From Pseudomonas poae (GTDB lineage: Bacteria; Pseudomonadota; Gammaproteobacteria; Pseudomonadales; Pseudomonadaceae): a stretch of 64,000 nucleotides of DNA. Location of the stretch: assembly GCF_001439785.1 (NCBI RefSeq), contig NZ_JYLI01000001.1:62001-126000 (forward strand), written 5' to 3'. Of this stretch, positions 42,725 to 64,000 are shown one piece after another (within the stretch, counting starts at the first letter, position 1; every line of letters begins with the position of its first letter). Below the pieces are notes generated by a model. The model made no database searches, was not told the origin of the DNA, and was given only the letters and a program-made list of their open reading frames with translations. The translations under genes were made by a program, and so were the position numbers.

Positions 42725-43699
42725 ATGACCTCCATCGAACACCAGGACGGACGTTTCAAGCTCATGTCGATCACGGATGAAACACCCGGCGCCGCCCTGC
42801 CCCGGTGCGTGCAGGCCAAGCCCGGCCAATCGATCCATGCGCTCGAGCAGTCCGTGCGCGACAGCCTCGACGCCAGCTTGCGCACCGTCGGCGGCGTGCT
42901 GTTTCGCGGCTTCTCGGTCGCCACCCCCATCGACTTCAAGCGCTTTGCCGCCAGCTTCGGCGCGCCACTGGCCGGCTACGAGTTCGGCTCGACGCCGCGC
43001 AGCAAAGTGTTCGCCGGGGTCTACAGCTCCACCGAATACCCGGCGCACCAGTTCATCCCCTTGCACAACGAGCAGGCCTACACCCGGCCCTGGCCTTCGC
43101 GCATCTGGTTCCACTGCATCAAAGCCAGCGAAACCGGCGGCGAAACGCCGATCTGCGACAGCCGCCTGATCTACCAGCGCATGCCCGCCGACATCCGCGA
43201 GCTGTTCGCCAGCCGCGAGCTGCTCTACGTGCGCAACTACAGCGGCGCCCTTGACCTGCCCTGGCAAAAAGTGTTCAACACCGAAGACCGTGCGCAGGTC
43301 GAGCGCTACTGCCAGGACAATGGCATCGAGTGGGAATGGAAAGCCGACGGTGACCTGCGCACCCGCCAGCGCTGCCCCGCCGTGCTGCAGCACCCGGAAA
43401 CCGGCGAGTGGGTCTGGTTCAACCAGGCGCACCTGTTTCACGTCTCGGCGATCGAGCCCGCCGTGCGCGCCAGCCTGCTGGCGGCCGTGGGTGAAGAAAA
43501 CCTGCCGCGTCATGTGTACTTCGGCGACGGCTCGGCCATTCCCGACGCCCTGCTCGACAGCGTGCGCGCCGTGTACGACCACACCGCCGTGAGCTTCCCC
43601 TGGCAGGCCGGTGACATCCTGATGCTCGACAACCGACTGGTCGCCCACGGGCGCAATCCTTATACCGGTGACCGCAAAGTCATCGTCGCCATGGCATGA
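42725..43699 (+). CDS. SyrP/TauD-family non-heme iron dioxygenase, amino acid beta-hydroxylase 1
   Basis: A 324-residue 2-oxoglutarate-dependent oxygenase of the SyrP group. The iron triad is visible as His114-x-Glu116 (LHNEQAY) and His308 (LVAHGRNPYTGDRKV), with the 2-oxoglutarate-binding Arg following. Such enzymes beta-hydroxylate Asp or His while bound to an NRPS carrier protein, creating iron ligands. The start at MTSIEHQDGR is better spaced from AGGA than the ATG at 42713. It overlaps the FAAL gene by 4 bases (ATGA). Confidence 0.88.
   Translation: MTSIEHQDGRFKLMSITDETPGAALPRCVQAKPGQSIHALEQSVRDSLDASLRTVGGVLFRGFSVATPIDFKRFAASFGAPLAGYEFGSTPRSKVFAGVYSSTEYPAHQFIPLHNEQAYTRPWPSRIWFHCIKASETGGETPICDSRLIYQRMPADIRELFASRELLYVRNYSGALDLPWQKVFNTEDRAQVERYCQDNGIEWEWKADGDLRTRQRCPAVLQHPETGEWVWFNQAHLFHVSAIEPAVRASLLAAVGEENLPRHVYFGDGSAIPDALLDSVRAVYDHTAVSFPWQAGDILMLDNRLVAHGRNPYTGDRKVIVAMA

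Positions 43700-64000: not shown

Follow-up and report, generated by a model that had tools for sequence, protein, structure and literature searches.

A corrugatin-family siderophore cluster in Pseudomonas poae predicted to make ornicorrugatin, and its relation to the corrugatin and histicorrugatin clusters

The question raised by this locus is which siderophore its nonribosomal peptide synthetase (NRPS) genes would make and how they relate to those of the named members of the family. The window, a stretch of 64,000 nucleotides of Pseudomonas poae DNA (C11:62001-126000), holds the left part of the cluster, which was followed past the right edge; positions above 64000 are contig C11 positions minus 62000. 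A preliminary description of the same DNA had placed the start of a corrugatin/ornicorrugatin-type cluster at 43696, which left out the cluster genes at 38919-43699, among them the hydroxylase gene at 42713-43699. The cluster extends in the window frame from 38919 to about 83114, its right part lying outside the window. Its five NRPS genes encode a fatty-acyl starter, eight amino-acid modules, a thioesterase and one intact epimerase, and there are three hydroxylases of the TauD type. The features are as follows.

38919..40322, minus strand: diaminobutyrate-2-oxoglutarate aminotransferase, for Dab supply (NF005393 at 738.2 bits, above the cut-off of 671; PF00202)
40410..42470, minus strand: TonB-dependent receptor, probably for the siderophore (PF00593 and PF07715; TIGR01783 at 182.5 bits, below the cut-off of 223.5)
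42578..42596, unstranded: Fur-box-like site in the divergent promoter region (14/19 consensus matches)
42713..43699, plus strand: TauD_a, stand-alone Fe(II)/2-oxoglutarate hydroxylase (PF02668, E 6.6e-51)
43696..47079, plus strand: NRPS starter FAAL-ACP-C (PF00501, PF00550, PF00668)
46908..48143, plus strand: TauD_b, stand-alone hydroxylase (PF02668, E 1.1e-47, the match beginning at residue 108)
48172..51162, plus strand: P3, NRPS module 1, with an interface-like condensation domain, A (His-type, DSALIAEVW) and T (Pfam, pocket code)
51197..65086, plus strand, in the window up to 64000: P4, NRPS modules 2-5, C-A(Dab) C-A(Orn) C-A(Ser) C-A(Ser)-T-E
55868..57322, plus strand: module 3 stretch (A2, Orn-like) that is missing in P. 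corrugata DSM 7228 and P. fluorescens ISL-33 (an A-less query matches in two pieces, one on either side of it; alignment)
65119-75174, beyond the window: P5, with C-A-T, an E-like domain, C-A-T, C and TauD_c
75171-78896, beyond the window: P6, the terminal protein, with an interface-like domain, A, T and TE
78897-80537, beyond the window: ABC exporter of the cyclic-peptide type (TIGR01194 at 442.1 bits, above the cut-off of 286.2)
80528-81184, minus strand, beyond the window: FhuF-like reductase (TIGR03951 at 72.2 bits, above the cut-off of 63.85)
81411-83114, beyond the window: SbmA-like ABC protein

The Dab aminotransferase and the TonB receptor (38919-40322 and 40410-42470, both on the minus strand) had been recognized in the preliminary description as fitting neighbors, and the FAAL-ACP-C starter that it named is found by Pfam at 43696-47079, with the fatty-acyl-AMP ligase NCBIfam matches to this protein all under their cut-offs. 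It had counted two beta-hydroxylases; the TauD protein at 46908-48143 stands, but the number is three, including the one at 42713-43699 and TauD_c, fused to an NRPS beyond the window. The true start of TauD_b is probably downstream of 46908. A minus-strand open reading frame at 42680-43717 was rejected as a gene, having no Pfam match, while the plus-strand frame at 42713-43699 encodes a TauD protein with relatives in 27/27 loci. Within the window, the Pfam E-values of the named domains range from 1.6e-7 (ACP) to 0, and since their order is also kept in relatives, chance is not at issue for the domain array. The sole MbtH protein found in the whole genome is encoded elsewhere (C5:105269-105427). 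Further large NRPS clusters of the same genome lie at C11:322827-344570, on the contig of the window and roughly 200 kb away from it, and at C54:203351-226959. Adjoining the siderophore cluster, the window holds at 30557-38915 chaperone-usher fimbrial genes and a regulatory pair, noted here as a side observation.

30557-31234: LuxR-type response regulator ahead of the fimbrial genes
31231-34941: large hybrid sensor kinase with SBP_bac_3 and Hpt domains
35047-35814: DUF1120 protein
35867-38269: fimbrial usher
38181-38915: PapD-like chaperone

The regulator and the sensor kinase presumably resemble a BvgAS pair.

A single MAFFT alignment of 68 A-type domains, among them four FAAL domains, supplied the pocket residues, read at positions that we take to be those of the GrsA numbering, anchored on motifs. 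For modules 1 to 8 the alignment columns gave DSALIAEVW, DIWELTADD, DSAELGTVD, DVWHFSLID, DVWHFSLID, DLTKVGHVG, DIWELTADD and DLTKIGHVG, which by code tables we take to stand for His, Dab, an Orn-like residue, Ser, Ser, Asp, Dab and Asp. Eight residues are thus predicted for the peptide, and the modules for the final Asp, Dab and Asp lie past the right edge. For the modules within the window, the preliminary description had predicted acyl-(bOH)His-Dab-X-Ser-D-Ser, and the domains give the same order: its His-like module corresponds to a partial condensation match with A-T at 48172-51162 and a His-type code, its Dab-like A1 has the Dab-type pocket, and its two Ser modules carry two identical DVWHFSLID codes, the second being followed by the E domain (HHLVIDAVSW). 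It had also named a module set beyond the window incompatible with beta-OH-Asp and a free lipopeptide as evidence that would speak against it; the modules there are Asp-Dab-Asp-TE with a fused hydroxylase, compatible with both beta-OH-Asp and free release.

The remaining residue, X of module 3, had been left as a basic-type A2 of unclear substrate. Its pocket, DSAELGTVD, is unlike the Dab pocket DIWELTADD, which occurs twice in the same cluster. The same eight codes (8/8) were found in P. mediterranea, P. trivialis, P. kitaguniensis and P. brassicacearum CCUG 51508, which we take to be the same type strain as DSM 13227. From the identity of its pocket with the A2 pocket of P. brassicacearum, A2 would be Orn-activating and X would be Orn. 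Over 696 residues, reaching from the end of C to T, the A2-bearing region shares 87% identity with its P. brassicacearum counterpart. A reading of A2 as the His module of histicorrugatin was discarded, as the A2 code of P. thivervalensis is identical and it is at the last module that this species differs. Likewise, the shorter P3 (996 residues vs 1022 in P. brassicacearum) was not taken as a sign of a broken A domain: most of the gap lies in the interface-like part, the A domain has gaps of 2 and 3 residues with another 2 near the C-terminus, and the pocket code is the same.

The nearest known system is the ornicorrugatin cluster (P. brassicacearum DSM 13227, BGC0003174; SBW25 PFLU3220, 3222-3225). 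P. brassicacearum CCUG 51508 has the same order of NRPS and hydroxylase genes, the same codes, the fused TauD_c and the Asp terminus, and sequence divergence was the sole difference found (identity of 82% for P4 and 73% for the terminal protein, besides the length of P3). For SBW25, a cluster with five NRPS genes and an ornicorrugatin-like product of eight residues has been described (PMC4528175), and by that description the present cluster, with the same numbers of genes and modules, is alike. At gene level, the FAAL-ACP-C starter and eight A domains are those of the corrugatin family. The substitution that sets ornicorrugatin apart, Orn replacing one Dab of corrugatin, is predicted from the A2 pocket. 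Lactuchelin of P. lactucae is likewise a Pseudomonas acyl peptide siderophore with beta-OH-Asp, but is described as hydroxamate-bearing, with seven residues and a cyclic depsipeptide core (PMC12904278).

Published masses were compared with this prediction. The family is described as having a fatty-acyl starter and an eight-residue peptide, with C8 given as the acyl length of corrugatin (PMC13037486). For P. brassicacearum DSM 13227, ornicorrugatin was reported by mass spectrometry at m/z 1012.46, 506.74 and 338.17 and assigned to a cluster that grouped with the histicorrugatin reference in BiG-SCAPE (PMC12971057). The composition predicted here, with a C8 acyl chain and minus two H2O, gives [M+H]+ 1012.4694, 506.7383 (2+) and 338.1613 (3+). 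A scan over acyl lengths of C6-C14, 0-3 hydroxyls, 0-3 water losses and Orn, Dab or Lys at residue 3 (tolerance 0.015) left three combinations that fit the mass, C8 with Orn, C7 with Lys and C9 with Dab, each with three hydroxyls and two water losses. All fits thus need three hydroxyls, and the cluster has three hydroxylases. The two H2O lost in the reported mass are not accounted for by any gene of the cluster, whereas the formula listed for corrugatin needs no such loss. That formula is C40H67N13O19 (mass 1033), with eight residues and one D residue, D-Ser (PMC10628113). Among 43,758 eight-residue sets drawn from eleven residue types, with octanoyl plus one water and no dehydration, a single set reproduces it: one OH-His, three Dab, two Ser and two OH-Asp, which is the peptide predicted here with Dab in place of Orn. 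For the present cluster, the likely product is octanoyl-(OH)His-Dab-Orn-Ser-D-Ser-(OH)Asp-Dab-(OH)Asp, or else a dehydrated derivative of this peptide.

Assembly would begin with the FAAL loading a short fatty acid, C8 by analogy, onto its ACP. The starter C domain would then couple the acyl chain to His bound to its carrier and hydroxylated there, the interface-like domain of this module being without the catalytic HHxxxD. Modules 2-5 would add Dab, Orn and two Ser, the second of which would be converted to D-Ser by the E domain. This domain follows the second Ser module, retains an intact HHxxxD and is the gene-level counterpart of the D-Ser. Modules 6-8 would add Asp, Dab and Asp before the thioesterase frees the chain. 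With a His-type and two Asp-type A domains and three TauD hydroxylases present, OH-His and OH-Asp ligands are predicted, and the three hydroxylated residues would provide three bidentate ligands for one Fe(III). Dab would come from the aminotransferase, and the cyclic-peptide-type ABC protein would export the product; the iron complex would be taken up through the TonB receptor and reduced by the FhuF-like protein, with Fur as the regulator.

P3 and P6 each start with a domain that lacks HHxxxD, and these two domains resemble each other, for which reasons we infer that they are interface domains; this term, like the hydroxylase subtype names IBH_His, IBH_Asp and TBH_Asp, follows published usage. 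In P5, the first Asp module is followed by an E-like domain (residues about 1060-1490, window frame about 68300-69590), which matches the E domain but neither of the interface-like domains at the start of P3 and P6. In place of the catalytic HH it has HS in this cluster, and HP or HA stands there in seven others, so that the second His is lost in 8/8, and a working epimerase is unlikely. It may perhaps be a docking site for a hydroxylase.

As to regulation, the Fur-consensus match at 42578, between the receptor gene and TauD_a, is the best of the whole window, although it is modest: its score was reached in 2/200 shuffles of the local region. In 26/27 relative loci the best match upstream of TauD_a starts 128-149 bp before the gene, and in the gammaproteobacterial MAG Ch67 it starts 93 bp before it; these matches cover 12 to 16 of 19 positions. 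Shuffles of 330 bases reached the score in 0-2/200 cases in four loci and in 5-62/200 in the other 23, so that the conserved place of the putative Fur site says more than the scores do.

The hydroxylases were then compared among the 27 relatives. TauD_a has relatives in all 27 loci, with identities of 82-95% in the 26 from Pseudomonas and of 66% in Ch67, and TauD_b likewise has relatives in all 27. In P. kitaguniensis, TauD_a (L008 4550-5526) matches in two pieces in different frames, reflecting a frame break or sequencing error. In the genomes of 19/27 relatives TauD_c was present with 88-97% identity, as part of an NRPS frame 3377-3454 residues long, whereas in the other eight (mandelii, lini, izuensis, thivervalensis, GM50, PICF141, MIACH and the MAG Ch67) its match never exceeded 59%, and the 59% match was to another long frame of GM50. 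When the terminal protein of P. thivervalensis was used as query (E <= 1e-300, the best 24 candidates of each genome being scored), exactly the eight genomes without TauD_c matched (49-100% identity) and none of the other 19 did. The His-type last-module signature was read in all eight, and the Asp-type signature in 7 of the 19 Asp-type genomes, namely those whose terminal protein was fetched. At the thresholds used, the His-type terminal protein and the fused TauD_c are therefore mutually exclusive in these relatives (8 vs 19).

Because TauD_c is absent exactly where the last residue is predicted to be His, we attribute to it a putative action on the last Asp (Asp8). Since both have relatives in all 27 loci, the stand-alone TauD_a and TauD_b are predicted to serve His1 and Asp6, in either order. 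The stereochemistry of stand-alone and fused hydroxylases is treated in PMC7100376. Read from the P. thivervalensis cluster, the extra His of histicorrugatin would be the last residue. On a tree of P3 (28 rows, one protein), six changes are required for the His-terminal label, of which starred branches force three or more, so that the exchange between Asp and His at the last module looks repeated; shuffled labels need as few in 90/500 cases, which means that the label is hardly clustered on this tree. The MAG Ch67 (L033, L093, L116) carries a His-terminal relative of the cluster with a P3 45% and a terminal protein 49% identical, and the cluster family is perhaps not confined to Pseudomonas.

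The preliminary description had also proposed a comparison with the P. corrugata locus. The corrugatin cluster of P. corrugata DSM 7228 shares the other seven codes and the fused TauD_c, but where the present cluster has the A2 domain, module 3 there (L025 13128-20543) runs from C straight into T. The same holds for P. fluorescens ISL-33 (L107/L108). About 490 residues are missing in both, with the frame open and the flanks well conserved, and the A2 domain is thus present in 25/27 relative loci and absent in two. The P. corrugata gene, read in one strain, is split over two contigs, so that its module count rests partly on ISL-33. An assembly collapse in P. corrugata is unlikely, given the open frame, the cut at domain edges and the agreement of a second genome with another junction. 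The large NRPS of ISL-33 is itself interrupted further on: its frame stops early, after 3501 residues, and 651 residues follow in a different one, reflecting either a frame break or a sequencing error.

A second sample, overlapping the first, consisted of 398 genomes of the genus, of which 57 had a TauD_b match (E <= 1e-100), 22 of these at >=80% identity, own genome included. With the A-less stretch as query, 20/22 gave two pieces split by an A domain and two a continuous match; by their coordinates, the latter (G151, G340) are P. corrugata and ISL-33 again and not new cases. Two further genomes, G353 and G420 (TauD_b 70%), gave only 49-53% matches to the A-less query. They contain giant NRPS frames of 4816 and 4937 residues, perhaps for an undescribed sister product.

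The two A2-less rows do not group as sisters in the P3 tree, where two changes are forced by starred branches. The junction letters differ between the two, and around the cut P. corrugata is nearer to the A2-bearing G199 (94 and 92%) than to ISL-33 (85%). These three observations favor two separate excisions of A2; one loss followed by regain is possible, and recombination between clusters could mislead the tree. As seven A domains serve eight residues, and three Dab residues of the listed product stand against two Dab-type A domains, the comparison suggests that A1, or else the module 7 A domain, supplies the A-less T with Dab. We consider it probable that the three products derive from one assembly line, in which in-frame excision of A2, seemingly on two occasions, left a C-T unit that borrows Dab and yields corrugatin, and exchange of the last module between Asp with a fused hydroxylase and His yields histicorrugatin. 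A description of the missing A domain was not found in the literature searched, which was covered in part, and its absence from print is not claimed.

These comparisons bear on what else the locus might make. If A2 activated Dab or were idle, the product would be corrugatin itself, with Dab at residue 3; the family is the same, the other codes are as in P. corrugata, and the published ornicorrugatin mass taken alone also fits Dab with a C9 acyl chain. Corrugatin has three Dab and no Orn, however, and here A2 is present with a pocket that differs from the Dab pocket and equals that of the ornicorrugatin species, whereas the corrugatin maker P. corrugata is without this domain, which makes corrugatin a very unlikely product. 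The histicorrugatin cluster of P. thivervalensis is close over most of its length, sharing the stand-alone hydroxylases a and b and the codes of modules 1-7 but for one position in module 6 (DLTKLGHVG there, DLTKVGHVG here). BiG-SCAPE, having put the cluster of an ornicorrugatin-making strain with the histicorrugatin reference (PMC12971057), may print that name here. The last module of the P. thivervalensis cluster, though, is His-type (DSALIAEVW) and the preceding NRPS has no fused hydroxylase, while the present cluster ends in an Asp-type A domain (DLTKIGHVG), has TauD_c and encodes a terminal protein just 33% identical to its P. thivervalensis counterpart; we give this reading a negligible probability.

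An NRPS with an acyl starter, in a genome with other NRPS clusters, could also belong to a pyoverdine side chain or a lipopeptide surfactant and not to a siderophore cluster of its own. Against this stand the TonB receptor, the FhuF-like reductase, the Dab aminotransferase, the three hydroxylases and the Fur-like site, together with codes common to the species and cluster type assigned to ornicorrugatin, and such an origin is extremely unlikely. We are highly confident that the locus is a corrugatin-family NRPS cluster, predicted from its sequence to make and take back ornicorrugatin. The family named in the preliminary description, which did not mention histicorrugatin, is thereby upheld and narrowed to ornicorrugatin by the A2 pocket.

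In summary, an ornicorrugatin-type siderophore is placed in a relative of P. trivialis, and the residue that had gone uncalled is settled by comparison. The three named products are linked to visible edits of one synthetase, and two markers, the presence or absence of A2 and the Asp- or His-type last module, predict the product of each of the 27 relatives. The A2-less clusters would be natural examples of an NRPS that, by the published product, still worked after loss of a whole A domain, and as such may be of use for enzyme re-engineering.
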